Part shown: positions 846-18,518 of the stretch, piece after piece | How positions within the stretch are numbered: the stretch's first letter is position 1 | Layout: each line of letters begins with the position of its first letter | Origin: Treponema sp. | GTDB taxonomy: Bacteria > Spirochaetota > Spirochaetia > Treponematales > Breznakiellaceae | DNA length: 41,050 nucleotides | NCBI GenBank assembly: GCA_009785215.1 | Contig: WQWU01000020.1 | Location: forward strand, 1-41,050 | Reading direction: 5' to 3' | Translations under genes and position numbers: made by a program | The notes under the pieces: generated by a model | What the model saw: only the letters and a program-made list of their open reading frames with translations | The model's database searches: none | Told to the model about the DNA's origin: nothing

Positions 846-1571
846 ATGACTTTAGAGAACGGCAAGGAAACAAAAAACCTGTATACTCTAATCCCCTTAG
901 AGGAGTTTAAGGCTCTTATGGGGATAGACGACAGAGAGGACAAATTAGCCCGATTTTGCCTAATAACCGCTACTTTGACGATAGAGCAATACTGCAAGCG
1001 GAAATTCCTGCGGAAAAAATATTTTGAAAATGTGCCGTTTTCGGGAAGTCTTGAAATTCCATTGAAGGAATATCCTGTTACGGAAATACTTGCGGTTTTC
1101 ACAATGAACGATGAGCAGTTTAGAGCCAACTGCGGAAAGATACTTGAACCTGTTTTTTACCGCCCGATGTTGGGCTGTGATTATAAAGAAGAACTGCCTT
1201 TTAGCCTTTTATTATCTCCCTCTTTAAGACCGTATCAATTAAAAGCCATAAGAATAATTTATTGGGGTGGATATGTTGTAAATTCGCATCCTTGCGAATT
1301 TACAACACGAAGTTTTTGTAAAACAAAAACTTCAGCTAAAGCAAGGAAAACAGCGGCATCCGTGCCACTTATCCCTGCTGACTTGGCAACTGCCTGTATG
1401 GAATTAGCGACTTGGAATATAAACCGATACCGTGGTCGGCGTGTTGGTATGACAGGAAATATAAGGGGCGCAGGAATTCTCGGCACAAGTGCCGCAGGCG
1501 AACATTTTGAATTGTCTATGCCAGAAAATGTAAAAACGTTACTGGAACCGTATAAACGTAAAACGATTTAA
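846..1571 (+). CDS. Phage head-tail connector (gp6-like), with in-frame palindromic insertion
   Basis: A 241-residue protein resembling phage gp6-type connectors, which join the portal to the tail. Seen are an N-terminal LEEFKALMGIDD segment, a helix with IEQYCKRKF, and a C-terminal SMPENVKTLLEPY/RRKT-type ending. Residues about 144-174 are encoded by a three-hairpin repeat module (1275-1366) that keeps the frame open. This stretch lies between a GGY turn and PADLATACMEL, where gp6-like proteins normally run straight on. The start has no good Shine-Dalgarno sequence and the gene opens the phage block, so the deletion that removed the head genes may have ended just upstream. Function of this copy is uncertain. 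Confidence 0.65.
   Translation: MTLENGKETKNLYTLIPLEEFKALMGIDDREDKLARFCLITATLTIEQYCKRKFLRKKYFENVPFSGSLEIPLKEYPVTEILAVFTMNDEQFRANCGKILEPVFYRPMLGCDYKEELPFSLLLSPSLRPYQLKAIRIIYWGGYVVNSHPCEFTTRSFCKTKTSAKARKTAASVPLIPADLATACMELATWNINRYRGRRVGMTGNIRGAGILGTSAAGEHFELSMPENVKTLLEPYKRKTI
1275..1366 (+). repeat. Three-hairpin module A, inside the connector gene
   Basis: Hairpin 1 (1275-1306) has 13-bp perfect arms around ATCCTT. Hairpin 2 (1309-1333) has 11-bp arms, GAAGTTTTTGT and its complement, around AAA. It is followed by AGCTAAAGC and hairpin 3 (GGCATCCGTGCC, 1355-1366). Order, loops and linker match the intergenic modules, but this one is read through in frame. Confidence 0.85.
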
Positions 1572-1612
1572 CTCTCGCAGAGGCGCAGAGACGCAAAGAA
1601 CGCAGAGAAGAA
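1572..1612. repeat. CGCAGAGACGC-type dispersed repeat
   Basis: The gap between the connector and the next gene contains purine-rich iterations of GCAGAG and GCAAAG (for example GGCGCAGAGACGCAAAG). Similar short repeats are scattered in many unrelated bacterial genomes. No hairpin or coding role is visible. Confidence 0.5.
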
Positions 1613-1627
1613 TTTAGGAGTTGTTGT

Positions 1628-2062
1628 ATGGAAGATTTTATTGAACTACAGATAATTTCCGCTGTTAGTAAGCTTTTAACTGTAAAGGTAAATGAAATAA
1701 TTGGAAACTGGAACTTCTTTTTTCCGTTAGTTGAAATTGGAAAATATAACGGAAGTAATGTTGTTAATCCTGTTATTTCGCTTTCTTCTTGTGAACAAAC
1801 AGAGAAGGAAAGAATTATCAAGATTGACAGTTATTCTTTGACAATAACTTTTACTGTTCCTGAAACGCCAGATTGTGAATTGTACTGTTACGGTTATTCA
1901 AACGCTTTTGATAAGGCTTTGAGTTTAGATAAAACTTTAGGCGGTATTGTTCAATGTGCCACAATAACAGGAACAAAATATATACCGCCCAAAAAACCTG
2001 ATTGCGGTTTATTTTGGGAAGTGATTATTTCCTTGCGTGTAACAACTGAGGGGCGTATATGA
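1628..2062 (+). CDS. Putative phage tail-completion / minor structural protein
   Basis: A 144-residue protein of mixed beta-strand character with no motif I can name. It lies between the head-tail connector and a tail-tube-like protein, where tailed phages encode head closure, tail completion or tail terminator proteins. The start follows AGGAG, and the stop overlaps the next start by four bases (ATGA), so the two are translationally coupled. Many YG and aromatic residues fit a structural protein. The function is inferred from position only. Confidence 0.45.
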   Translation: MEDFIELQIISAVSKLLTVKVNEIIGNWNFFFPLVEIGKYNGSNVVNPVISLSSCEQTEKERIIKIDSYSLTITFTVPETPDCELYCYGYSNAFDKALSLDKTLGGIVQCATITGTKYIPPKKPDCGLFWEVIISLRVTTEGRI

Positions 2063-2925
2063 AAATGCAGGGTTGTAATTGTTCAATACTTATAAAAACA
2101 GAATACAGTGAATTAGATATACCGTATTCAGAAGAAACTATAAGAGACGCAATTTCTGTTTTACAGGAAGAAGCGAGTATCGAAGGAGACGGCACTTGTA
2201 AGGCAATACGAAAAAAAAGCGGCGTAACTGGCTGTGTTGTTACATCATTAACTATTGGTACGGCTCCGCTGTTGCTTTATCTTGCTATGGGTGCTGTCGG
2301 GTTGCCTGTTTTGATTTCACAAACAAGAAGCCTTTACAGATACAGTCTTTGTTTAATACCGCAGGAAGATACAGAGTATTTTAATTTGGTTCAAGACCGT
2401 GGCGGAGAGAGAAAATATTTTGAAAGATGTTTTGTTCAAGGTTTTGAATTGCGTTTCGAAAGAGAGCAAGCAATTAAATTAAAACTTGATGTTTGCGGAG
2501 ACGCACCTTCTGTAATTTACCCATATGCAGATAAATTTGAAAAAATAACAGAAGAAAGATTTTACAGTGATAATGTAAAGTATTTATTAAACGGCAAAGA
2601 ATATAAAAATATTTACGGTATTACGCTTCTTGTGAAAAAAGAAAGCGGAACAAAAACAGAAATATGGATAAAACGTTCATTAGAGCAAGGTTCAGACTTG
2701 CCAGAAATTATTGATGAATTTGTTATTAACGCACAATTATTAAGAGATAAATATGAATACAGTTATTACGGCGCATTTAAGATAACTCTTAAAAGACTGG
2801 TTTTAATTTCAAATGAAACGAATGTAAACAATAGCGATACTGTTATTAGCCCTCTTAGATATTATACGGCAGGAACTGTGTCCGCTGATGTTTTCTCAAC
2901 AAACAGCATCCATGCTGTTTGTTGA
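2059..2925 (+). CDS. Phage tail-tube-like protein (tentative)
   Basis: A 288-residue hypothetical structural protein coupled to the preceding gene by a four-base overlap. Its middle contains a hydrophobic stretch (TIGTAPLLLYLAMGAVGLPVL) followed by beta-rich sequence; the position suits a tail tube or a related tail component. The last codons and the TGA stop are encoded by the first hairpin of repeat module B, so the C-terminal residues after about DVFSTN probably derive from the repeat and not from the ancestral gene. No enzymatic motif is seen. Assignment rests on order in the cluster. Confidence 0.4.
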   Translation: MKMQGCNCSILIKTEYSELDIPYSEETIRDAISVLQEEASIEGDGTCKAIRKKSGVTGCVVTSLTIGTAPLLLYLAMGAVGLPVLISQTRSLYRYSLCLIPQEDTEYFNLVQDRGGERKYFERCFVQGFELRFEREQAIKLKLDVCGDAPSVIYPYADKFEKITEERFYSDNVKYLLNGKEYKNIYGITLLVKKESGTKTEIWIKRSLEQGSDLPEIIDEFVINAQLLRDKYEYSYYGAFKITLKRLVLISNETNVNNSDTVISPLRYYTAGTVSADVFSTNSIHAVC

Positions 2926-2988
2926 GATCGAAGTTTTTGCAATGCAAAAACTTCAGCTAAAGCAATTTAACAACGCCATCCATGGCGT
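2895..2988 (+). repeat. Three-hairpin module B
   Basis: Hairpin 1 (2895-2926) has 15-bp perfect arms around CC and contains the upstream TGA stop. Hairpin 2 (2930-2954) has 11-bp arms around AAT and is followed by AGCTAAAGC, as in modules A and E. Hairpin 3 (ACGCCAT-CC-ATGGCGT, 2973-2988) immediately precedes GGGGAG and the next ATG. Confidence 0.88.
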
Positions 2989-3000
2989 GGGGAGAACATT

Positions 3001-4509
3001 ATGAGGTTTTACGATATTGATAATGCCCTGCAAGAAGCGATAATCGCTGCGGATAAACCAGTTAGGCTTCGGATAGATATTGAATGTGGTAATTATTTTA
3101 ACAGAGTTTTTGAACAGGATATAATCGAAGCCAATTTTTACGGATTAAAAGAAGTCTCTGGCGGTACATCTGCAAGAGGTGAACTGCTGCTTGATAATAC
3201 TATCGGGATTTATAACTATTCATCTGCAAGACCAAATAGTCAGGTTAAGGTTTCATTTTCACTTGGCGAAGGTCTGCCGTATTTTCAGAGATTTGTTTTT
3301 TACATTGACGAAAAAGGTATACAAGATATAAGGGGAAACGGCAGAAAGAAATTTGTTTATATCGGTTTACAGGATTTATCGGCAAAGTTAAGAAAAACAG
3401 ATGAAGCAAGGGATTGGACTTCCCCTGCAGTTTTTACATATTCAGTAGTTTGCGATAAAACGCAACCTGAAAATTCACTGGTTCACGGCATCGCTAAACG
3501 TGCAGGATTAGCGGTTAATGATATTGATTGTTCAACTATTCCTGTAACGCTTCCATATATTCGGTTAAGACGCAATATATGGGGTGAATTATCAAGTCTG
3601 GCTACTGCTTATAGGTGTCATTTAGAGTGCGCACCTGAAAAGCCGTTGGTTTTTGCACATTCTCCATACCAGACAGAAACAATGACGGATAATGAATACT
3701 CTTATATTTTTACTGGCGATGATATTTTTTATCTGCGTAAAACTGCAAGGGCTGATTATTACCGTAATACTGTGCGGTTAAAAGTGAATATGCCAGTATC
3801 ACTTGAAAAACAGGATATATGGCGTTATGACGAAGCTCCAATTTTTTATGATGATAATTTACAGCCATATTATCCGTTTAGAAATGCGATTGTAAGAGAA
3901 ATTGAAAGCGGAAGATATGAAGCTCGTTACAAGGTTATTGACGAAAATGGCAAAGAACGGAATGTAGTCTTTGCTGATGAGATAGACGACAGAGAAGAAG
4001 CAGAAACCAGATTTGAATATCAAGGCGGTTCTTTTTACTATTCCTTTTATGATGTTACTACACATTATGACAAAGCGATTTTAACTCTTAATAAAGACGC
4101 AGACGGAGATTTATACAGGGCTGTTATATACGGCAGACCGATTGTATTGGATTTGAACCGTTCGTGCTTTCTTCGTGATGAGGAAGGTATCGAAAATTAT
4201 GGAACTGTTGCATTAAACATTACAGGTTCTTATTTTTCTGAATATGAAATAGACGGTAGACCGCATTATGAGGATTGGGTAATCCGTGAACTGGCGGAAA
4301 GAATACAAAACAAAAGAGAATTTACTGTTAAAACTCACAGAGCATTATTTAACGCTCGTGTCGGCGCAAAGGTAAAAATCAAAACAAAGAATGAGGAATT
4401 ATCGGGAACGGTTAATGCGTTCTCGTTTAGATATAAGCGCAATAAAGCGTTTGTTGCAAGCTTCAAAATTATGGAAAACAGGGAGGGTGCTAAAAATCTT
4501 CATCCGTGA
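3001..4509 (+). CDS. Phage tail protein (putative tail tip / baseplate hub)
   Basis: A 502-residue protein rich in predicted beta strands. It starts MRFYDIDNALQEAI and includes a segment resembling tail proteins that organise around the tail tube (AKVKIKTKNEELSGTVNAFSFRY near the C-terminus). It follows the tail-tube candidate and precedes the lysis genes, where tip or hub proteins usually lie. GGGGAG provides ribosome binding. The terminal residues NLHP and the TGA stop are part of hairpin 1 of module C. No tape-measure gene is visible between it and the tube, which is unusual for a siphophage. The precise role is not established. Confidence 0.5.
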   Translation: MRFYDIDNALQEAIIAADKPVRLRIDIECGNYFNRVFEQDIIEANFYGLKEVSGGTSARGELLLDNTIGIYNYSSARPNSQVKVSFSLGEGLPYFQRFVFYIDEKGIQDIRGNGRKKFVYIGLQDLSAKLRKTDEARDWTSPAVFTYSVVCDKTQPENSLVHGIAKRAGLAVNDIDCSTIPVTLPYIRLRRNIWGELSSLATAYRCHLECAPEKPLVFAHSPYQTETMTDNEYSYIFTGDDIFYLRKTARADYYRNTVRLKVNMPVSLEKQDIWRYDEAPIFYDDNLQPYYPFRNAIVREIESGRYEARYKVIDENGKERNVVFADEIDDREEAETRFEYQGGSFYYSFYDVTTHYDKAILTLNKDADGDLYRAVIYGRPIVLDLNRSCFLRDEEGIENYGTVALNITGSYFSEYEIDGRPHYEDWVIRELAERIQNKREFTVKTHRALFNARVGAKVKIKTKNEELSGTVNAFSFRYKRNKAFVASFKIMENREGAKNLHP

Positions 4510-4577
4510 AGATTTTTAGCTTTGAGTTTTGCTTTGCAAAACTCATAACATAAAACTAAGCGGCATCCGTGCCGCTT
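4489..4577 (+). repeat. Three-hairpin module C
   Basis: Hairpin 1 (4489-4520) has 13-bp arms around ATCCGT and contains the upstream TGA. Hairpin 2 (4524-4544) is GAGTTTTGC-TTT-GCAAAACTC. Hairpin 3 (4558-4577) is AAGCGGC-ATCCGT-GCCGCTT, directly before GGGAGGG and the next start. Confidence 0.88.
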
Positions 4578-4592
4578 AAAACGGGAGGGACA

Positions 4593-4847
4593 ATGAATAA
4601 AAGAACAGGGGGAAATTCTATGACCGTACAGGACAGACAGTTGATTGTTGAGACGTTAGGCGAAATTAAAGAGCTTAAAGGTGAAATGAAGGAGTTTAAG
4701 GAACACGTTATCGGGCGTGTATCAAGGTTGGAGAAAAAAGACAATGAACGAAGCAAGGAAAGTAAATCTACTATCAGCATTATTATTGCTTCGATTGCTG
4801 TATTACTGACGATAATTATCAATTTTTTTACACACGGGAGTAAATGA
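4593..4847 (+). CDS. XhlA-like membrane-anchored coiled-coil protein (lysis)
   Basis: An 84-residue protein. It has an N-terminal charged coiled-coil (LGEIKELKGEMKEFKEHV) and one C-terminal transmembrane helix (about residues 60-78, SIIIASIAVLLTIIINFF) followed by a short basic tail. This is the layout of XhlA/haemolysin-type phage proteins that act with a holin and endolysin. A strong GGAGGG site four bases upstream supports this start; a second ATG nine codons later is possible. The endolysin gene follows closely, consistent with a lysis cassette. Similarity is by architecture, as no diagnostic motif exists. Confidence 0.6.
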   Translation: MNKRTGGNSMTVQDRQLIVETLGEIKELKGEMKEFKEHVIGRVSRLEKKDNERSKESKSTISIIIASIAVLLTIIINFFTHGSK

Positions 4848-4982
4848 ATGAGTATCAAATGGGAAAAGTGGCAAAAAATCAACATCCGTGTCGATTTTTT
4901 GCCTAGAAGTTTGCAGAGCAAACTTCAAAAAGATTATTCAGTATTCGCCATCCTTGGCGGAAGGAAAAAAAATGCATATTAA
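4848..4982 (+). CDS. Small ORF running through module D (truncated or fortuitous)
   Basis: An open frame of 44 codons starts at an ATG one base after the previous stop region and runs MSIKWEKWQK, then continues through all three hairpins of module D. It ends inside the endolysin start. Only about the first ten residues are not repeat-derived. Either a gene was cut short by the repeat, or the frame is open by chance. Low confidence as a real product, but it parallels the in-frame module in the connector gene. Confidence 0.25.
   Translation: MSIKWEKWQKINIRVDFLPRSLQSKLQKDYSVFAILGGRKKNAY
4871..4959 (+). repeat. Three-hairpin module D
   Basis: Hairpin 1 (4871-4902) is a long AT-rich palindrome with one mismatch and the central CATCCGTG. 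Hairpin 2 (4906-4926) is GAAGTTTGC-AGA-GCAAACTTC. Hairpin 3 (4946-4959) is CGCCA-TCCT-TGGCG, right before GAAGGA and the endolysin start. Confidence 0.85.
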
Positions 4983-5523
4983 TTGGACTAGTCTTATGCA
5001 AAACGAAAAAAAGCAATTTGAAAATATGAACGAACACGATAAATTCGTTTATTTTTTATTATTGCAATACGGCAGTCCTTATGGTTGGGGAATGGAAAAC
5101 CCAATCTCTGCGGACTGTTCAGGAAAAGTCTGTATGGCTTTATTCGCTGCTACTGGCTTGTTAATTCGTACTACTGCGGATGATTTATTCAAAAGAGTTT
5201 TTACAAGAGTAAATCCTCGCAATACGGATATTCGGGCGGTGTTCTATGTAACAAAAAAGGATATGAAACACGGAGACAGAATGGTCGCTGCAGGAACTTG
5301 TACGCATATTGCAGGGTTTGTTGATGAGGGTGTTATTCTCAATTCACAACAGCCTACGGCAAGGGTACGGCGTGTTAATGATGTTTCAGACTGGTATCAA
5401 AGAAACGGTTACGACATTCATATCAGAGGGTTAAACCGTGCGGAATTGGAACGGCTGGCGAAAGAAGGGAAAACTGTCTATGGGCTTGATAAAGAGTTTA
5501 GCGACTTTTTCAATGTCGTGTAA
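4972..5523 (+). CDS. NlpC/P60-type phage endolysin
   Basis: A 183-residue probable cell-wall hydrolase. The segment YGSPYGWGMENPISADCSGKV places a catalytic cysteine at residue 49 in the D-C-S-G context of NlpC/P60 peptidases. THIAGFV near residue 112 supplies the likely catalytic histidine. There is no signal peptide, as expected for a holin-dependent endolysin. The ATG follows AAGGA and hairpin 3 of module D; a longer frame upstream would read through the repeat and is not needed. It sits between the XhlA-like gene and further lysis candidates. Substrate is presumably the peptide stem of peptidoglycan. Confidence 0.72.
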   Translation: MHINWTSLMQNEKKQFENMNEHDKFVYFLLLQYGSPYGWGMENPISADCSGKVCMALFAATGLLIRTTADDLFKRVFTRVNPRNTDIRAVFYVTKKDMKHGDRMVAAGTCTHIAGFVDEGVILNSQQPTARVRRVNDVSDWYQRNGYDIHIRGLNRAELERLAKEGKTVYGLDKEFSDFFNVV

Positions 5524-5642
5524 GCGATATTGAAACATCGCTTACACAAGCGATAAACGACATTAAAACGTCGTTTATCGAAGCGGTTTACGGTGCTGTA
5601 CCAGCACCTACATTTCACCTACGGTGAAACGTCGTAAACCGC
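5518..5642 (+). repeat. Complex hairpin block J after the endolysin gene
   Basis: Two 11-bp hairpins with related loops (ATTGAAAC at 5529-5536, ATTAAAAC at 5562-5569) are followed by a three-way junction. In the junction, GCGGTTTACG (5583-5592) pairs with its complement at 5633-5642 and encloses two stem-loops that both have the loop TAC. The stop of the endolysin lies in the first stem. It occupies the slot of the three-hairpin modules but has different sequences. Confidence 0.8.
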
Positions 5643-5655
5643 CATAGGGGGATAA

Positions 5656-5850
5656 ATGAAAGTTAGTAAAGTTACAGAAAATGATAGTAAGAAAACCTGC
5701 GGTGATTGTTTGCATTGTAAAGTTTCTTATTCACCTACAAAAATAAATAGACTTTGTTTTTGTGCGAAAAAAAACCATAAAGAATACGAGACAGAAATTA
5801 AATGGCTGAACAGATCAGTTTGCGGAATGTTCGAGGATATGTCGGCGTGA
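5656..5850 (+). CDS. Small cysteine-rich (zinc-ribbon-like) phage protein
   Basis: A 64-residue protein with CGDCLHC near the N-terminus and further cysteines in LCFCAKK and SVCGMF, a spacing compatible with a small zinc-binding fold. It starts after a GGGGG-rich site and its TGA stop overlaps a GTG start of the next gene by four bases. Such small metal-binding proteins are common in phage accessory segments. Its partner or nucleic-acid target cannot be told. Confidence 0.5.
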   Translation: MKVSKVTENDSKKTCGDCLHCKVSYSPTKINRLCFCAKKNHKEYETEIKWLNRSVCGMFEDMSA

Positions 5851-6107
5851 GTAAAACAGACGGTATTCAAATATCAGACAAGCCGACTTGGGAGCATACA
5901 TTCAAAGAGTTGTTTGCAATTCTTGGGAAACGGATAGTTTCGCTACCTTCTAAATTGCTTGGGTTCAAGCCTTTTTGTTTATACGCTGCGACTTGGTTAT
6001 TAATTGGCGGTCATATCAGAGATTGGATTTGGTTTTGTATTGTGGTCATAGTTCTTTTTGGAATTGTGGGTCTTAAAGTTGTATCGAGGTGGAAGGAACA
6101 TCATTAA
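5847..6107 (+). CDS. Small two-helix membrane protein (holin candidate)
   Basis: An 86-residue protein starting at GTG, chosen because GTGA overlaps the previous stop and GAGGA lies upstream. Two hydrophobic segments (about residues 40-60 and 61-80, PFCLYAATWLLIGG and WIWFCIVVIVLFGIVGL) and a charged C-terminal end (SRWKEHH) fit a small holin. It lies between the endolysin and the spanin-like pair, which supports a lysis role. The stop is inside hairpin 1 of module E. The holin call is by architecture and context. Confidence 0.45.
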   Translation: MSKTDGIQISDKPTWEHTFKELFAILGKRIVSLPSKLLGFKPFCLYAATWLLIGGHIRDWIWFCIVVIVLFGIVGLKVVSRWKEHH

Positions 6108-6194
6108 AAATCTACATCCGTGTAGATTTTTAATGTCGAAGTTTTGCTGTGCAAAACTTCAGCTAAAGCGTTATAACAGCGGCATCCTTGCCGC
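6103..6194 (+). repeat. Three-hairpin module E
   Basis: Hairpin 1 (6103-6134) has 14-bp perfect arms around TCCG and contains the upstream TAA. Hairpin 2 (6138-6160) is GAAGTTTTGC-TGT-GCAAAACTTC and is followed by AGCTAAAGC. Hairpin 3 (6179-6194) is GCGGCA-TCCT-TGCCGC, abutting AGGAGAATT and the next ATG. Confidence 0.9.
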
Positions 6195-6203
6195 AGGAGA
6201 ATT

Positions 6204-6512
6204 ATGAAAAAATGTAAATGTATTCTGACTGATTTTGCTTACGGTTTAATTATCGGGTTTGTAACTGCGGTAATTATTTGTATGACGATATTTGGATTGA
6301 TTTATGTCAATCATAAAACTAAGGAGAGATTGGAATATGCAGAAAGGCAAATTGAGATTGAAGTCTTACGAGAAGATATTATCAATCGTGATGTTGTTGA
6401 TATTCTTGATACAATCCCAGGGGTTCGCAATGCCTCTGACGGAGCAGCAGCAGAATTTGAACGAAGAAGAGACGAGATTTTACACGGATTTAGAAATCGA
6501 AATACTGATTGA
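6204..6512 (+). CDS. Rz-like inner-membrane spanin candidate
   Basis: A 102-residue protein with a single N-terminal transmembrane helix (LIIGFVTAVIICMTIFGLIY) followed by a long charged coiled-coil (KTKERLEYAERQIEIEVLREDI). This is the layout of an i-spanin. AGGAG precedes the ATG. A second gene starts inside it in another frame, as in many phage Rz/Rz1 pairs. Spanins bridge the inner and outer membranes in the last step of lysis, which suits a diderm spirochaete host. The call rests on architecture and position after the endolysin. Confidence 0.5.
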   Translation: MKKCKCILTDFAYGLIIGFVTAVIICMTIFGLIYVNHKTKERLEYAERQIEIEVLREDIINRDVVDILDTIPGVRNASDGAAAEFERRRDEILHGFRNRNTD

Positions 6513-6735
6513 TGAAATTTCGGAAGCGGCATTGGAAGCCATAGAACAGGCTGCAGGAGAAGCAGCAAGAGCAGCAGTTTTGTCTATGCTGGAACGTGAA
6601 GCCATAACGTTAAGAGAAAATCAACGATTGCGAACTGAAGCTGAAGCGTTAAGACGAAATAGATTATTGATTGGGGTTCTTAGTTTTATTGGTGGTTTGA
6701 TTACTGGCGTTGTTATTAAAAATCATCTTCCATGA
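6337..6735 (+). CDS. Overlapping exported membrane protein (Rz1-like position)
   Basis: A 132-residue protein encoded in a different frame from the spanin candidate, overlapping it for 176 bases. The ATG is supported by AAGGAGAG eight bases upstream. It begins with a signal-like hydrophobic segment (ILSIVMLLIFLIQSQGFA). A long Ala/Glu-rich helix follows, then a C-terminal hydrophobic helix (LIGVLSFIGGLITGVVI). It lacks a clear lipobox cysteine, so it is not a typical Rz1 lipoprotein, but the nested arrangement resembles Rz/Rz1. The terminal KNHLP and TGA come from hairpin 1 of module F. Confidence 0.5.
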   Translation: MQKGKLRLKSYEKILSIVMLLIFLIQSQGFAMPLTEQQQNLNEEETRFYTDLEIEILIDEISEAALEAIEQAAGEAARAAVLSMLEREAITLRENQRLRTEAEALRRNRLLIGVLSFIGGLITGVVIKNHLP

Positions 6736-6746
6736 TGATTTTTAAT
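6715..6746 (+). repeat. Module F, hairpin 1 (stop-codon hairpin)
   Basis: This stem has 13-bp perfect arms around TTCCAT and contains the last codons and TGA of the overlapping membrane protein. Together with hairpins 2 and 3 it makes module F. Confidence 0.9.
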
Positions 6747-6749
6747 ACA

Positions 6750-6805
6750 GAAGTTTTGCGTTGCAAAACTTCATAAATCATATTTACACCGCCATCCATG
6801 GCGGT
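6750..6805 (+). repeat. Module F, hairpins 2 and 3
   Basis: Hairpin 2 is GAAGTTTTGC-GTT-GCAAAACTTC (6750-6772). Hairpin 3 is ACCGCCAT-CC-ATGGCGGT (6788-6805), followed by a GGGGGGAG ribosome-binding site and the next ATG. Confidence 0.9.
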
Positions 6806-6820
6806 ATTGGGGGGAGATAA

Positions 6821-7372
6821 ATGTTTGAAAAAATAAAAATTAAAGGAAAAGTTACGGTACAGGTTTTTGACAGTAACGGTAAAATTAAAAGGCGAAGTCC
6901 TTGTTTCCTGCGCAGATTATTTGGCTTGCAGGGAAAGTTTATGGTGCAGGAGTTTCATAACATTGTAACAAGAGAGGGAGACGCTTTAATAGCTGACGCT
7001 CTTTTGACTGCGCCAACACGGTCTAAAGTTACAAGCGCAAGCGGTTTTATTCAAGTTGGTACTGGTTGGACTGGAAACTCTGTTAAAACCAATACAAGGT
7101 GCAATACTCCAACTGGAAGTATGAAAGCCTTAGACGCAAGTTATCCTGCATTGAAGGCTGCTTGGGGAAGCTCTGGTGATACTACTGTTACATATCGTGC
7201 TACTTTTGGCGCAGGACTTCTTAATGTAAATGGAATAAACGAAGCCTGTCTGTTGAACGGAAATAGTACATCTGCTAACTGTTTGGCATACGCTCAAATT
7301 ACACCTAGCGTAAATGTAACTGCAAGCGACACCCTGCAAATAGTATGGGAAATTACAATACTCGGTCAATAG
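6821..7372 (+). CDS. Phage tail-fibre-like structural protein
   Basis: A 183-residue protein. It has a basic N-terminal strand-rich segment (KIKGKVTVQVFDSNGKIK) and a Gly/Thr/Ser/Asn-rich body (QVGTGWTGNSVKTNTR). The end is beta-rich (SVNVTASDTLQIVWEITI), typical of phage fibre or appendage proteins that read GTGWT and end in VWEITI. It precedes a larger fibre-like protein. A GGGGGGAG site gives strong initiation. Exact role (fibre, decoration or baseplate-attached protein) cannot be settled. Confidence 0.55.
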   Translation: MFEKIKIKGKVTVQVFDSNGKIKRRSPCFLRRLFGLQGKFMVQEFHNIVTREGDALIADALLTAPTRSKVTSASGFIQVGTGWTGNSVKTNTRCNTPTGSMKALDASYPALKAAWGSSGDTTVTYRATFGAGLLNVNGINEACLLNGNSTSANCLAYAQITPSVNVTASDTLQIVWEITILGQ

Positions 7373-7373
7373 C

Positions 7374-7468
7374 GCAATAAAAATGTCATCCGTGCCATTT
7401 TTATTGCTATGAGTTTTTACTTCGCAAAAACTCAATTAAAATTTATTGGCTATACGCCATCCGTGGCG
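7374..7468 (+). repeat. Three-hairpin module G
   Basis: Hairpin 1 (7374-7407) begins one base after the TAG stop and has 12-bp arms plus a mismatch around CATCCGTG. Hairpin 2 (7410-7434) is TGAGTTTTT...AAAAACTCA. Hairpin 3 (7455-7468) is CGCCA-TCCG-TGGCG before a weak ribosome-binding site. Confidence 0.86.
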
Positions 7469-7481
7469 AAAGAATTGAAAT

Positions 7482-9200
7482 ATGGTAAATTTTGTTCAAA
7501 GTTCAAATGATTTTCCACTGGTTGTTTCTCTTGGTGAAAAAGAGCCGTCTTGCGGTCTTTCACGTTGGGGCGGTAAAGAACGGTTAATGTTTATACCGCC
7601 TTGTGATGAGGGGCTTTTGCTTAGGGGGAACAATAGGCAGCTTGTCTATAAAGGGAGAAAGCAGTCTCATAGGTATACTATTTTGGGAGACGGCGCTTTT
7701 GAGTACGATTGTATATTAAATAAAGAGCCAGAAAGTAATGTTGTTGTTTTGAGAATGGAAGGAGCTGAACATTACGATTTTTTCAGACAGCCTGATTTTG
7801 TCCGTGATGATTTTTTGAAAGGTAGTTATGCTGTTTATAAAAAGCAAACTCTTGTAGGTCAAGGTACAGGCAAACTTTGTCATATACACAGACCGTTAAT
7901 TATTGACGCTCGTGGTCGTAAGGTTTGGGGGGAATTGTCTGTTGTCGGGAATGAATTGCGGATAACGATACCAGAACAATGGCTGTCAGAAGCGAAATAT
8001 CCTGTTGTTGTTGATCCGACTGTTGGTAGTACGCAATTAGGAAGTCAAACACATTGGGATAATGAAGATAATGAAAGTTATGACCCTTTACATATTGAAG
8101 TGGCTATTGCGGTTAATCGGTTTTTGATACCAGAAACATTAAATGGTTTAGCAACTGGATATATATATGCTTATAATAATGATTATGACCCACCTGTAAG
8201 ACCTGCGCTGTATTCCGATAACAATAATTCTCCATTAACAAGAAGATCTGCAAATGAGGGCTTTTATGATATTGAAGTAAGAGCAGGAAAACCAGCAAGT
8301 TGGAGAAGTGCAACATTTCAAACTAATACAAGTATTTCAAGCGGTAGTTATGTTTGGTATGGTTTTTGTTCGTGGTGGTATGCTACAAGATTTGATTATG
8401 GAGCCAGATGTTATTTAGGAGACTGGAGTAATAATTCTGTTATTCCAAATACATTTCCGATTTATAATGTTAATTGGTACGAAAACTTTAAGCTGACAAT
8501 GTATTTCACTTATTCATCGGCTCAAAATTATGTGCGGACTTTAACGCAGGGTGTAAGGCTTACTGATGTAAGAAGCAATAAAGCGGACTATAATAGATTA
8601 TCTACACAGACAACAAGAGCGTCAGATTTGTTACAAGGTTCTGTTTCATTTTTCCGCAGTTGTCTTTCCAATGCTTTTAACAATACATCAATGATAAGAA
8701 CTCCAACTTTTATTCGTACAAGAAGTGAAAATATTGGTATATCTGGTGAATTGAAAAATAATCGGGAAATTAAAAGACAGGCTTTAGAAGATGTGCAAGT
8801 TAATGAAAAGTTTACTAGAAGTCAAGGATTTATACGAAGTTTAATAGATGATTTATTTTCCAGTGATAATTTTAATTTTGATGTTTTAATTTTACGTTCT
8901 ATTTCTGAAAATGTAGAAGTTAAAGATATTTTTATAAAATTAAATGAATACTTTTGTAATTTATACGAAGAAGCAGGAATAATTGAACAAATAGAACGAC
9001 AGGGAGATTTTTACAGGACAGAAAAAGAAAATGTTATTGCAGAGGGTTCTCTTTTTAGACAGTTATGTATTTTTATTAAACTGTTTTCTTCTTCGATTGT
9101 TCGGGATTTTATCCTAAAACGGTTTTTAATTGCCAGAGAGGAATTAGTTTTGAAATCAAATATAACAAGAGATTTAATTCTTGAAAGTAAAATAAGTTAA
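7482..9200 (+). CDS. Large phage tail / surface protein
   Basis: A 572-residue protein. The N-terminal 190 residues include KVWGELSVVGNELRITIPEQ and then KYPVVVDPTVGS, a strand-rich domain found in phage and cell-surface proteins. A middle region rich in Tyr, Asn and Ser follows, and a C-terminal third of long charged helices (FIRSLIDDLFSSDNF onward). It lies among fibre and baseplate genes, so a tail appendage is the most economical reading. The helical C-terminus is more AT-rich and less fibre-like, suggesting a composite protein. No enzymatic motif was found. Confidence 0.5.
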   Translation: MVNFVQSSNDFPLVVSLGEKEPSCGLSRWGGKERLMFIPPCDEGLLLRGNNRQLVYKGRKQSHRYTILGDGAFEYDCILNKEPESNVVVLRMEGAEHYDFFRQPDFVRDDFLKGSYAVYKKQTLVGQGTGKLCHIHRPLIIDARGRKVWGELSVVGNELRITIPEQWLSEAKYPVVVDPTVGSTQLGSQTHWDNEDNESYDPLHIEVAIAVNRFLIPETLNGLATGYIYAYNNDYDPPVRPALYSDNNNSPLTRRSANEGFYDIEVRAGKPASWRSATFQTNTSISSGSYVWYGFCSWWYATRFDYGARCYLGDWSNNSVIPNTFPIYNVNWYENFKLTMYFTYSSAQNYVRTLTQGVRLTDVRSNKADYNRLSTQTTRASDLLQGSVSFFRSCLSNAFNNTSMIRTPTFIRTRSENIGISGELKNNREIKRQALEDVQVNEKFTRSQGFIRSLIDDLFSSDNFNFDVLILRSISENVEVKDIFIKLNEYFCNLYEEAGIIEQIERQGDFYRTEKENVIAEGSLFRQLCIFIKLFSSSIVRDFILKRFLIAREELVLKSNITRDLILESKIS

Positions 9201-9281
9201 AAATGGCTTCCTTGCCATTTTTAACTTTCGGAGTTTCCGCTTTGCGAAAACTCCACAATAAAACAACGCCATCCATGGCGT
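9194..9281 (+). repeat. Three-hairpin module H
   Basis: Hairpin 1 (9194-9227) has 14-bp perfect arms around TTCCTT and contains the upstream TAA. Hairpin 2 (9230-9254) is GGAGTTTCCGC-TTT-GCGAAAACTCC with one mismatch. Hairpin 3 (9266-9281) is ACGCCAT-CC-ATGGCGT, adjacent to AGGAG. Confidence 0.9.
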
Positions 9282-9291
9282 AGGAGTAAAT

Positions 9292-9582
9292 ATGGGAAAA
9301 ATATTTAAGGGTCAAACTGCTTTACGCTTAACATTAAAAACTTTTACTGATTTGGAAGATATTATTTCTGCTGTTATTAAATATAGAAAACCAAACGGCT
9401 CTACAGGAGAATTTAACGCTGCTGTGAGTGATGTAACTAAGGGTGTTATTTTTTATGAATGTATAGAGGGAGATATTGACGCTACTGGTTGGTGGGTTTT
9501 TTGGGCTTTTGTTACCTTTGCTGACGGCCGTACGGCTGCAGGAGAAGCAGCAAAAGTTTATGTTTGGAAGGAAGGCTGCTAA
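9292..9582 (+). CDS. BppU-like phage baseplate protein domain
   Basis: A 96-residue protein with the pattern of the N-terminal domain of phage baseplate upper proteins. It begins MGKIFKGQTALRLTLKT, followed by IKYRKPNGSTGEFNA and a WWVFWAFVTFADGRTAAGE strand pair, the segment in which this family describes a polymer-like immunoglobulin fold. It starts after AGGAG. Here the domain stands alone and probably links fibres to the baseplate. The TAA stop lies in hairpin 1 of module I. Family similarity is judged by eye. Confidence 0.6.
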   Translation: MGKIFKGQTALRLTLKTFTDLEDIISAVIKYRKPNGSTGEFNAAVSDVTKGVIFYECIEGDIDATGWWVFWAFVTFADGRTAAGEAAKVYVWKEGC

Positions 9583-9709
9583 AAAATCAACTTCCTTGTT
9601 GATTTTTTAGCTAGGAGTTTGCTTTCGCAAACTCCATTAAAATGGGAAAACAGCGCCATCAAGAGGGGAACCTTCGCCACTTTGTGGCTCGGTTGAGGTT
9701 CCGTGGCGC
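9578..9709 (+). repeat. Three-hairpin module I, with expanded third hairpin
   Basis: Hairpin 1 (9578-9611) has 14-bp perfect arms around TTCCTT and includes the upstream TAA. Hairpin 2 (9614-9635) is GGAGTTTGC-TTTC-GCAAACTCC. Hairpin 3 is enlarged: GCGCCA (9653-9658) pairs with TGGCGC (9704-9709) and encloses a second stem formed by GGAACCT and AGGTTCC. Its internal AGAGGGGAACCTTCGCCA (9662-9679) recurs exactly at 12512-12529. Confidence 0.85.
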
Positions 9710-9718
9710 AGGAGTTTT

Positions 9719-10075
9719 ATGGCTAAACGAAAAACCATTGAAGAAAAATACAATGAAAATATACGGAAACAACAAAGAATACTTGATGATTTCATTGCTC
9801 ACGAAACGGAATGGGCAAATGATTTAATGCTTTGGTACAGGGTTAAAAAACTGGAAATGCCAGAAGATGAATATAGGGGTGTATCTTATTTTTTGAATAA
9901 AGAGTTTACAAAGAAAACTGGTTCTTTGTCCTTGCTTTATGAAACTTCAGTACGATGTGATAACGAATTACCAGAGTTTACAAAAGAATTGGCTTTTGAC
10001 CTTGTTAGGTTCAAATATAAAATGTATTCCGCAGTTTTGGAAAAAGGGGGTTACGGTGGTACAACAGTTGGGTGA
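9719..10075 (+). CDS. Hypothetical phage protein upstream of the helicase
   Basis: A 118-residue protein. It begins with a basic coiled-coil-like helix (KRKTIEEKYNENIRKQQRIL) and continues as a mostly helical, charged sequence with no motif I recognise. It overlaps the GTG start of the helicase gene by 20 bases, so the two are probably co-translated. A replication accessory role or a small terminase-like DNA-binding role are both possible by position; neither is supported by a motif. Confidence 0.5.
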   Translation: MAKRKTIEEKYNENIRKQQRILDDFIAHETEWANDLMLWYRVKKLEMPEDEYRGVSYFLNKEFTKKTGSLSLLYETSVRCDNELPEFTKELAFDLVRFKYKMYSAVLEKGGYGGTTVG

Positions 10076-11441
10076 TGAGTGTATTTATTTAAGGCTTCAA
10101 CAGCTACAAAAAGGTTTATTACAATTTACAGATACGACAAACGCATACAGATTATTAAAAGAATATGGCAAGGATATTCGTTATAATTCTGTATGGAAAA
10201 AATGGCTTGTGTGGAATGGCTGTCATTGGGATATGGATGACGGTTATTTAATACACGATAAAGGCTTGCAGATTATCAGAGGTATTTATCAAGAATTATT
10301 AAAAACATCTGATTTTAGAGATAGAATTGATATTGAAAAACACGCTATGCAAAGTGAAAGCGCAAGAAGGAGAAAAGCGCTCATTGAGGTTGCTTCGTGG
10401 ATACCTGAATTAAATGTTAAAACTGATGATCTTGATAAAGACCCTTGGCTTTTGAATGTGCGAAATGGAACGATTAACTTGCAGACTGGAGAAATTAACG
10501 AACACAATGCGGATAATTTAATTACCCGATGTGCGAATGTTGATTATGATAAAAACGCAGATTGCCCTGTTTGGAAAAAGTTTTTAATGGAGATTATGAA
10601 TTACAATAGTGATTTGATACGGTTTATTCAAAATGCTGCAGGTTGGGCAATTACTGGCGATACTTCCGAACAAACTATGTTTATTTTATTCGGTACTGGC
10701 GCAAACGGAAAATCTACTTTTCTAAATACGATTATGAATTTATTGGGTGATTATGCTTCCGCTACGCCGACACAAACTTTTATGAAAAAGACAGGCGACC
10801 AAATGACTAATGACCTTGCAAGGCTTAGGGGTGCAAGGTTTGTTACTACTACAGAAACGGAACAAGGCAGAAGATTGTCTGAACCGCTTATAAAACAAAT
10901 AACTGGAAATGACAGAATTACCGCACGGTTTTTGTACGGAGAGTTTTTTAATTTTCTTCCGACTTTCAAAATTTGGATGGCGACAAACCATAAACCAGTT
11001 ATTAAAGGAACTGACCACGGTATATGGCGAAGAATTAAACTAATACCTTTTACAAACCGCATAGAAGAAGAAAAACAGGATAAATATCTTGAACAGAAAC
11101 TAATGCAGGAAAGTTCAGGTATTTTGAATTGGTTGTTGGAAGGTGCAAGGCGTTGGTGTAATGAAGGTTTGAAGGCTCCGAAAATTGTATTAAATGCTAC
11201 TGCTGAATACAGGGCGGAAATGGATGTTGTGGGAGATTTTATAAATGAGCGTTGTATTCAAATATCTGGTGTTGCTATTAAGGCAAGAGAACTTTTTAAG
11301 TGTTATCAGGACTGGTGCGAAGAAAACAATGAACGTGCTGTTAGTGAAAGATTTTTTGGTTTGCGCTTAAAAGAAATTGGTATTGACCAGAAACGAAGTA
11401 ATGACGGTAGGTACTGGCAGAACATTCATTTGAGGGCATAG
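10056..11441 (+). CDS. D5/P4-type phage replication helicase (superfamily 3)
   Basis: A 461-residue protein starting at GTG (AAAAGGGGG lies just upstream). An alpha-helical D5_N-like segment is followed by a Walker A motif GTGANGKST at residues 213-221, a Walker B/sensor region (FVTTTETEQGRRLSEPLIKQ) and IWMATNHKP. A C-terminal DNA-binding part (KCYQDWCEENNERAVSERFFGLRLKE) closes the protein. This is the helicase half of P4/D5 primase-helicases; the N-terminal primase domain is absent, so the element needs a separate primase. It is the last gene before a structured noncoding region that contains iterons, so that region may be its origin. Confidence 0.85.
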   Translation: MVQQLGDECIYLRLQQLQKGLLQFTDTTNAYRLLKEYGKDIRYNSVWKKWLVWNGCHWDMDDGYLIHDKGLQIIRGIYQELLKTSDFRDRIDIEKHAMQSESARRRKALIEVASWIPELNVKTDDLDKDPWLLNVRNGTINLQTGEINEHNADNLITRCANVDYDKNADCPVWKKFLMEIMNYNSDLIRFIQNAAGWAITGDTSEQTMFILFGTGANGKSTFLNTIMNLLGDYASATPTQTFMKKTGDQMTNDLARLRGARFVTTTETEQGRRLSEPLIKQITGNDRITARFLYGEFFNFLPTFKIWMATNHKPVIKGTDHGIWRRIKLIPFTNRIEEEKQDKYLEQKLMQESSGILNWLLEGARRWCNEGLKAPKIVLNATAEYRAEMDVVGDFINERCIQISGVAIKARELFKCYQDWCEENNERAVSERFFGLRLKEIGIDQKRSNDGRYWQNIHLRA

Positions 11442-12290: not shown

Positions 12291-12511
12291 CCAGCGGAGA
12301 GCCAATAAACTCTTGTGTTAGGCATTGCCGAGAAAAGTACCGCATACAGAACCGCAAAGAGGAAATAAACTTTGCATTTAGAAAAATAATTTAATGAGCC
12401 AATAAACTGTTCACATCATAGTGCGGTGGTGCACCGCACTTCTGCGGTTATGTAGGCGGTTCTTTTTCGGCGCTTAGATTTCCGTCTTTTGTTTTTCCTT
12501 CCTGCCATAGC

Positions 12512-12556
12512 AGAGGGGAACCTTCGCCAACAAACCTTATGGTTTATTGGCTCGGT
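12512..12556. repeat. Second copy of the module-I internal repeat
   Basis: AGAGGGGAACCTTCGCCA matches 9662-9679 exactly over 18 bases, and both copies are followed within 30 bases by TGGCTCGGT. It ties the noncoding region to the phage intergenic repeats. Confidence 0.8.
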
Positions 12557-12853
12557 GCGGGTTGCGGAAAGAGCCAGATAAACTTTTTATGAGCTATCAG
12601 ATATCGGAACTGTTACCAACTTTTCACTTGCGAAGATAAGAGCCGAATAACTTTTTATTTTTCAAAATCGGCGGAGTGATGATACTCGTGTAGTGAGCGT
12701 AGCGAACGAAACGATGTTGAAGAACGGAGAATAGCCAATAAACTTTTTCACTACGAAGTCTTGGGAAGGTTGCTAACACTACGTCAGCCGTGGGCGAATA
12801 TCAGGGTGCTTGTTGGGAATGAGAAAAACTGGGTGGGCGTACTACAGCCAGCT

Positions 12854-18416: not shown

Positions 18417-18518
18417 GAAAATAAGGCTTTTTTTAGATTTACGTGATTGCGCCCTACAATCACTTCACCAATCGAACTTTCTTTTGATTAACGTGATTGC
18501 GTTCTACAATCACCTCAT
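18417..18518 (-). ncRNA. Type III antitoxin RNA: two 50-nt repeats
   Basis: On the minus strand GTGATTG...CAATCAC stem-loops occur twice with a period of exactly 50 bases (stems at 18493-18513 and 18443-18463). The surrounding ~30 bases are also conserved (CAATCACGT(T/A)AATC). Transcription should begin near 18518, at the edge of the first repeat. Type III antitoxins are short repeat RNAs cleaved by their toxin into repeat-length units. Two repeats of about 50 bases fit the shorter-array families (TenpI, CptI) better than ToxI. Confidence 0.75.

Follow-up and report, generated by a model that had tools for sequence, protein, structure and literature searches.

TD-2, a family filed as small RNA, looks like a mobile palindromic repeat among phage genes of Treponema

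Nine three-hairpin modules interspersed among phage genes in a 41,050-nt stretch of Treponema sp. DNA (assembly GCA_009785215.1, contig WQWU01000020.1, positions 1 to 41,050 of the forward strand; hereafter the window) are copies of the Rfam family TD-2 (RF03162), and in Treponema and its spirochaete relatives TD-2 probably acts as a dispersed palindromic insertion element, short at about 90-100 bp. Its copies occupy some orthologous junctions and not others, often lying directly after a stop codon and sometimes in frame within a gene. Dispersed palindromic copies with empty orthologous sites, the mark of repeats resembling miniature inverted-repeat transposable elements (MITEs) or Rickettsia palindromes, were found. 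Among the roles suggested in an original prediction, made from the window's sequence, a mobile palindromic element is the best supported, by empty sites, in-frame insertions and sporadic occupancy. 

Results and Discussion

Identity of the modules

A scan of the whole window at Rfam gathering thresholds returned 11 matches: nine to TD-2, one tRNA and one 6A RNA. All nine modules match TD-2 on the minus strand over the full model (1-98), with scores of 53.0-74.0 bits (gathering cut-off 48.7 bits) and E-values of 1e-9 to 2e-5; they are not a chance pattern. A covariance model of our own, with eight of the nine in its training set, gave E-values of 4e-18 to 2e-7. The modules were present, in the window sequence and in the Rfam scan, where the original prediction had placed them, and its statement that no described element has this plan did not hold, all nine being TD-2 on the opposite strand. 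It had also described them as separating successive phage genes, which applies to the eight at gene junctions and not to module A, which lies in frame inside an open reading frame (ORF). All coordinates below are those of the window.

1271..1369, minus strand: module A, TD-2; in frame within the head-tail connector ORF 846-1571; RF03162 53.0 bits; empty in relatives
2890..2989, minus strand: module B, TD-2; between ORFs 2059-2925 and 3001-4509; RF03162 62.9 bits
4485..4576, minus strand: module C, TD-2; after ORF 3001-4509; RF03162 74.0 bits
4866..4961, minus strand: module D, TD-2; before the NlpC/P60 ORF (start about 4972); RF03162 57.7 bits
6098..6195, minus strand: module E, TD-2; between ORFs 5802-6107 and 6204-6512; RF03162 61.7 bits; site also filled in genome G152 (locus L065)
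6710..6805, minus strand: module F, TD-2; between ORFs 6304-6735 and 6821-7372; RF03162 65.9 bits
7370..7470, minus strand: module G, TD-2; between ORFs 6821-7372 and 7482-9200; RF03162 53.0 bits
9191..9282, minus strand: module H, TD-2; between ORFs 7482-9200 and 9292-9582; RF03162 56.2 bits
9574 to about 9709, minus strand: module I, TD-2; between ORFs 9292-9582 and 9719-10075; RF03162 58.9 bits over 9574-9668, the rest by eye

Four of the Rfam alignments give the TD-2 plan: first a 6-bp hairpin (consensus loop AUGGAU), then one of 11 bp with GAGUUUU, and last one of 14 bp (consensus loop ACGGAU). The modules as first described are its reverse complement. Read on the plus strand they comprise a long hairpin with a WTCCNT loop and arms of 13-15 bp, a GTTTTGC-like hairpin 2, followed by AGCTAAAGC in modules A, B and E (by eye), and a GC-rich CATCCNTG hairpin that adjoins the ribosome-binding site. 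The fixed W-TCC-N-T loop of the original prediction is indeed conserved, and on the minus strand it reads as an ANGGAN hexaloop. In module I the GC hairpin is interrupted at about 9660-9704 by extra sequence, itself able to fold, which accounts for the length of 132 bp. A sequence GAGGGGAACCTTCGCCA...TGGCTCGGT is common to 9655-9705, where it interrupts this hairpin, and to 12505-12565 (by eye), and is perhaps a second small repeat.

The window copies thus share with Rfam TD-2 its three hairpins, the ANGGAN loops of the outer two and full-length matches. They differ from the entry, which is typed as a small RNA (sRNA) gene in clan CL00124, in looking like insertions with empty sites, antisense to phage genes. 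A literature search found no paper naming TD-1 or TD-2 RNA or motif, or RF03162; the description of TD-2 is reportedly that of Weinberg et al. in 2017.

Empty and filled sites in relatives

An alignment query for relatives of the phage region yielded 30 genome and 30 viral loci; single-protein viral scans gave 0, 5 and 1 loci. The nine occupied sites were surveyed with a strict TCC-loop hairpin test in relatives with both flanks, and a module was present in 11 of 243 site-relative pairs and absent from 232. By site the counts were A 3/29, B 2/26, C 1/28, D 0/19, E 0/21, F 0/26, G 1/38, H 0/27 and I 4/29. Covariance models found TD-2 at H in two loci, L019 and L210, where the strict pattern had not picked it up, so 11 is a lower count and at least 13 is right; conversely, occupancy is raised because many loci were fetched for carrying TD-2. 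A short TD-2-like insert at G in L220 (34.5 bits) was counted as empty, and two of the four loci counted at I (L197 and L220) show a single hairpin, with L197 matching the full model. Left out, with one flanking gene missing or unmatched, were L065 at E and L146/L224 and L196 at D; these last carry TD-2 behind the same upstream gene as the window.

At module A, many relatives match the connector protein as two pieces, up to about residue 149 and from about residue 175, and among 29 distinct relatives that have both pieces TCC-loop hairpins occur in three (G152, G180:C9 and viral contig L232) and in none of the other 26, some of which carry other short inserts. The connector gene carries an in-frame copy in the window, G152, G180 and L232. 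Among the relatives compared, G152 also has a copy in frame inside its tail gene, at a place where the window has none. The junction between ORFs 1628-2062 and 2059-2925 is empty in the window and filled in 3 of 30 relatives. Of two prophage contigs from one metagenome-assembled genome (Spirochaetia bacterium MS502-68), L210 is filled at H and empty at G, and L215 is the reverse.

A chromosomal example is the pstA-pstB junction (gene names from reading the translated proteins). Of 39 genomes sampled within the genus, 36 gave a match of some kind to the query, and eight orthologues reached at least 77% identity; two of their junctions are filled (G152 and G156) and six empty, including the window's own genome and G157. 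The pstA protein is identical in G152 and G157, and the filled spacer is longer by 87 bp. Both copies lie directly after the stop codon in the same orientation with unlike outer arms, and two independent insertions are likely, the alternative being repeated loss.

Other inserts were seen at the same phage junctions in L146 (690-920), L196, L209, L216 and L232, including one palindrome about 180 bp long and stretches of repeated ATGAGAAATGA-like sequence. A copy inside a hybrid kinase in L010 was set aside as evidence, being below the cut-off (39.1 bits) and in a loop of variable length among relatives.

Distribution of TD-2

The window's own genome (75% complete) has 12 TD-2 matches, the nine in the window and three below the cut-off elsewhere. 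Within the family, TD-2 was found in 85 of 195 genomes at E <= 0.001, 55 of them over the cut-off (a stricter filter caps the copy numbers from this search), and in a sample of the phylum in 33 of 296 genomes (22 over the cut-off), every one of them from either the window's family or a single further family in its order. In G320, a genome in one contig of about 2.9 Mb, there are 60 matches, of which 46 exceed the cut-off. In G102 and G088 the copies as printed are closely alike and their flanks differ. The many copies with covarying arms and conserved loops that the original prediction had proposed to seek in other genomes were found in the family, in the phylum sample and in G320.

In 3 of 12 loci scanned (L021, L032 and L050) TD-2 is followed on the same strand by a Flavo-1 RNA (RF01705) with an 11-base overlap, so the two repeats may travel together. 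At four G320 loci (L297, L298, L299 and L301) TD-2 lies behind lipoprotein-like proteins with a C-terminus resembling formylglycine-generating enzyme (by eye), the fold of diversity-generating retroelement targets.

Orientation and the case for mobility

Orientation was counted in 59 of the 66 related phage loci L196-L261, turned so that the query gene reads forward; of those left out, L233, L234, L235 and L237 repeat included contigs and L256, L257 and L261 do not, and L205 and L206 among those loci carry nearly the same phage. All 22 strong matches (E < 1e-6), nine of them in the window, lie on the minus strand, antisense to the genes. Up to E 0.1 there were 32 matches, 25 minus and 7 plus, five of the latter overlapping minus-strand matches; the remaining two are in L236 (E 6.6e-4) and L212 (0.021). 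Among 77 modules found de novo in L010-L101 and the window, with simple ORF calls, a gene edge lying within -35 to 50 nt of the TD-2 3′ end belonged to an antisense gene in 29 cases versus 3 sense. A tally of our own for G320 gave 11 antisense versus 2 sense within 50 nt. At most close junctions the mRNA strand is the complement of TD-2.

If TD-2 is a dispersed insertion element, a trans-acting enzyme would move it, junctions would tolerate it by keeping the stop codon and ribosome-binding site usable, and the window prophage would have accumulated nine copies. Two sources of the orientation bias are conceivable: a sense copy would place CsrA-type ANGGA hairpins before a start codon, or the act of insertion has a direction of its own. 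Like Rickettsia palindromic elements and prokaryotic MITEs, which the excerpted text of PMC10969869 describes as short, palindromic and dispersed, some of them in frame within genes, TD-2 is a short palindromic repeat; it differs from them, compared by description rather than sequence, in its three hairpins, fixed loop motif and orientation bias. Repetitive extragenic palindromes (REPs) and their associated tyrosine transposases (RAYTs) offer a second comparison, REPs being likewise dispersed extragenic hairpins, unlike TD-2 in that TD-2 has no consistent link to a Y1 transposase. REPs are also described as bearing GTAG/CGTC tags (PMC3733652, in excerpt).

Several observations weigh against this reading. 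A repeat that inserts freely would not usually show such an orientation bias, and the counts are not uniform: L236 has a weak plus-strand match that stands by itself, gene edges within -10 to 50 nt of the TD-2 5′ side gave 12 antisense versus 5 sense, the 3′-side gene taken with no distance limit gave 48 versus 23 (77 modules), and in G320 the bias fades to 16 versus 14 (30 copies) when the limit is lifted. The antisense bias is therefore strong only close to genes. Simple copy-and-paste does not explain copies whose arms are so different, and conservation of the loops between families suggests that they serve some purpose other than selfish spread. By eye, the filled/empty pairs showed no consistent target-site duplication. 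The search for a Y1 transposase (PF01797), the one enzyme sought, was positive in 4 of 10 genomes and negative in G102 (86% complete, at least 19 TD-2 matches), and RAYT/Y1 transposase was set aside as mobiliser for want of consistent presence. Among the 15 Y1 loci scanned, a GGA hairpin of 14 bp occurs in one, L181, and GGA hairpins of 6 bp in L168, L180 and L181.

Pairing of the stems

The covariation that the original prediction had proposed to test in other genomes was observed: in an alignment of 66 copies, 15 of 18 predicted pairs had double changes, and the 1188 cells held 7 G.U, 3 A.C and 3 other mismatches. A stem scan of 79 modules on the TD-2 strand, which fixed only GGA in a six-base loop and in which any other mismatch ended the stem, counted 1493 Watson-Crick pairs, 10 G.T and 2 A.C (12 of 1505 wobble-type). 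G.T pairs made up 0.67% in TD-2 stems, against 7.3% (17/232; Fisher 2e-9) in 11 tRNAs taken from those loci, and wobble pairs leaned to the TD-2 strand (two-sided binomial p 0.039), both statistics being biased in that most loci were found with Rfam's model and the scan pattern prefers intact stems. Identity of the outer arms was 0.37 between copies and 0.32 among the eight window copies in the alignment. At one orthologous site, in the connector gene, the alleles TGTTGTAAATTCGCA, TGTTCCAAATCCGCA and TGTTGTAAAACCGCA show compensated changes, TGTTCCAAATCCGCA having one C.A pair on the plus strand that is G.U on the minus; the filled connector alleles include a T-A to A-T swap.

Such near-perfect pairing in variable arms would be explained by block rewriting or by very strong selection. 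Rewriting of an arm as a block, copied from the other arm or from the target, as in quasipalindrome correction or target-templated synthesis at insertion, is a tentative alternative account of the stems. It would fit the scarcity of G.T pairs relative to tRNAs, arms that are dissimilar between copies and paired nonetheless, the T-A to A-T swap, and site H, where native CATTAA/CACTAA makes the outer arm. Strong selection for perfect stems fits the same data, however, the scan itself favours intact stems, the 66-copy alignment does contain mismatches, and the pst outer arm is not native. The outer six positions matched native sequence at 47 of 102 (46%; by eye, 17 pairs, after five other filled copies were dropped by eye from the 22 listed) against about 33% in a control over all 22. 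A general rule that the gene-side arm is the native target fits H in L210, I in L024 and the p2|p3 junction in L025; it is weak overall, and for that reason native arms are kept as part of this alternative only.

In a more specific form, TD-2 would be an insertion element of a new kind, its long hairpin made afresh wherever it lands by copying one arm, inverted, from the other arm or the target. Stems would then remain almost perfectly paired, with few G.U intermediates, and CsrA-type loops and antisense orientation would allow a copy to lie behind a stop codon while the following gene stays unsilenced. This is improbable.

Loops, CsrA and RNA-based alternatives

On the TD-2 strand, A is the first base in 157 of the 158 loops of the 79 modules, and C-G is the closing pair in 157 of 158; the search pattern had specified GGA but neither A nor C-G. 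According to the excerpted text of PMC4005645, a high-affinity RsmE/CsrA site is an ANGGAX hexaloop whose stem closes with a C-G pair, and the minus-strand loops, two per module and directly on stems, have the form of that consensus. Binding of a protein, CsrA, to these loops is therefore plausible from their sequence. A CsrA gene was found in 14 of 16 genomes searched and not in G000 and G186, both incomplete; the window's own genome, 75% complete, is among those in which none was found.

These findings raise an alternative, which we consider rather unlikely, in which TD-2 is a real minus-strand sRNA whose hexaloops bind CsrA, and the prophage would carry up to nine antisense CsrA sponges like CsrB or RsmZ. 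Those RNAs and the candidates TwoAYGGAY and Bacillaceae-1 likewise present paired ANGGA hairpin loops on stems (excerpts of PMC4005645 and PMC4333381), and PMC4333381 (in excerpt) argues similarly from the motif for TwoAYGGAY and for Bacillaceae-1 read as its reverse complement; TD-2 differs from the CsrA/RsmA-binding sRNAs in having only two sites per copy. The hexaloop form, the frequency of CsrA genes, the Rfam typing as sRNA and the wobble lean (G.T 10 versus A.C 2) all speak for an sRNA, the last with the reservation that the copies had been collected by means of Rfam's model, in which G.U on the TD-2 strand is favoured. Set against them are the position of all nine modules antisense to tightly packed phage genes, their sporadic occupancy in relatives and the failure to find a CsrA gene in the window's incomplete genome. 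Within 150 bp upstream on the minus strand no sigma-70-like promoter, the only type covered by the scan, was listed for any module, and an independent sRNA with its own promoter is unsupported by that scan.

The complementary strand could instead supply cis-acting mRNA elements, intergenic hairpins that set the 3′ ends, processing or translation of their neighbours. That TD-2 complements the mRNA strand at most close junctions suits this account, as does Rfam TD-1 (RF03155), a family of the same clan CL00124 with a longer model (120) that is typed Cis-reg: absent among the window matches, it overlaps TD-2 on the opposite strand at seven of the eight G320 loci picked as being of this type. Terminator-like sites are also enriched in the region (17 found versus 7.6 expected), and seven of these belong to modules A, C, E and H, whose hairpins score as terminator-like (the Rho-independent type being a GC-rich stem with a T run after it) on one strand or on both. 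On the other hand, wobble pairs do not favour the plus strand, one copy lies within coding sequence and six of eight pst operons lack a module. Terminator or translation control by a module may occur but is not needed at these junctions, 232 of the 243 pairs in the strict test being without one, and the account is unlikely.

If TD-2 is the mobile palindromic repeat that it looks like, its "RNA" counts and the strand given by Rfam may mislead annotation. The rarity of wobble pairs in widely varying stems is a warning that covariation alone may not prove RNA function if palindromes can be rewritten as blocks. Were the CsrA-type loops used, these spirochaetes and phages would carry a CsrA-titrating repeat; sRNAs of that kind had been identified only in Gammaproteobacteria as of 2014, according to the excerpted text of PMC4333381.

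Genomic setting

The part of the window that holds the modules, from about 846 to 11441, looks like a partial prophage. It is followed by chromosomal flagellar genes, with a strong match to fliM and one to fliL below the Pfam cut-off. Features other than the modules are as follows.

846..1571, plus strand: head-tail connector ORF carrying module A in frame; phrog_442 head-tail adaptor, E 8.8e-11; 241 aa
about 4972-5523: NlpC/P60 protein with a minor-tail match
9939-11441: D5-type primase
18467-18517, minus strand: 6A RNA (RF02925); 49.2 bits

A different multi-hairpin spacer lies at 5518-5640, between the NlpC/P60 ORF and ORF 5656-5850; in L065 the tblastn matches to these two ORFs are only a few bases apart. 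Outside the phage genes, 12873-12932 on the plus strand holds two GGA-loop hairpins without hairpin 2 (R1, E 0.0018), one reading GGCATC-AAGGAT-GATGCC and the other a 17-bp stem with loop ACGGAT.

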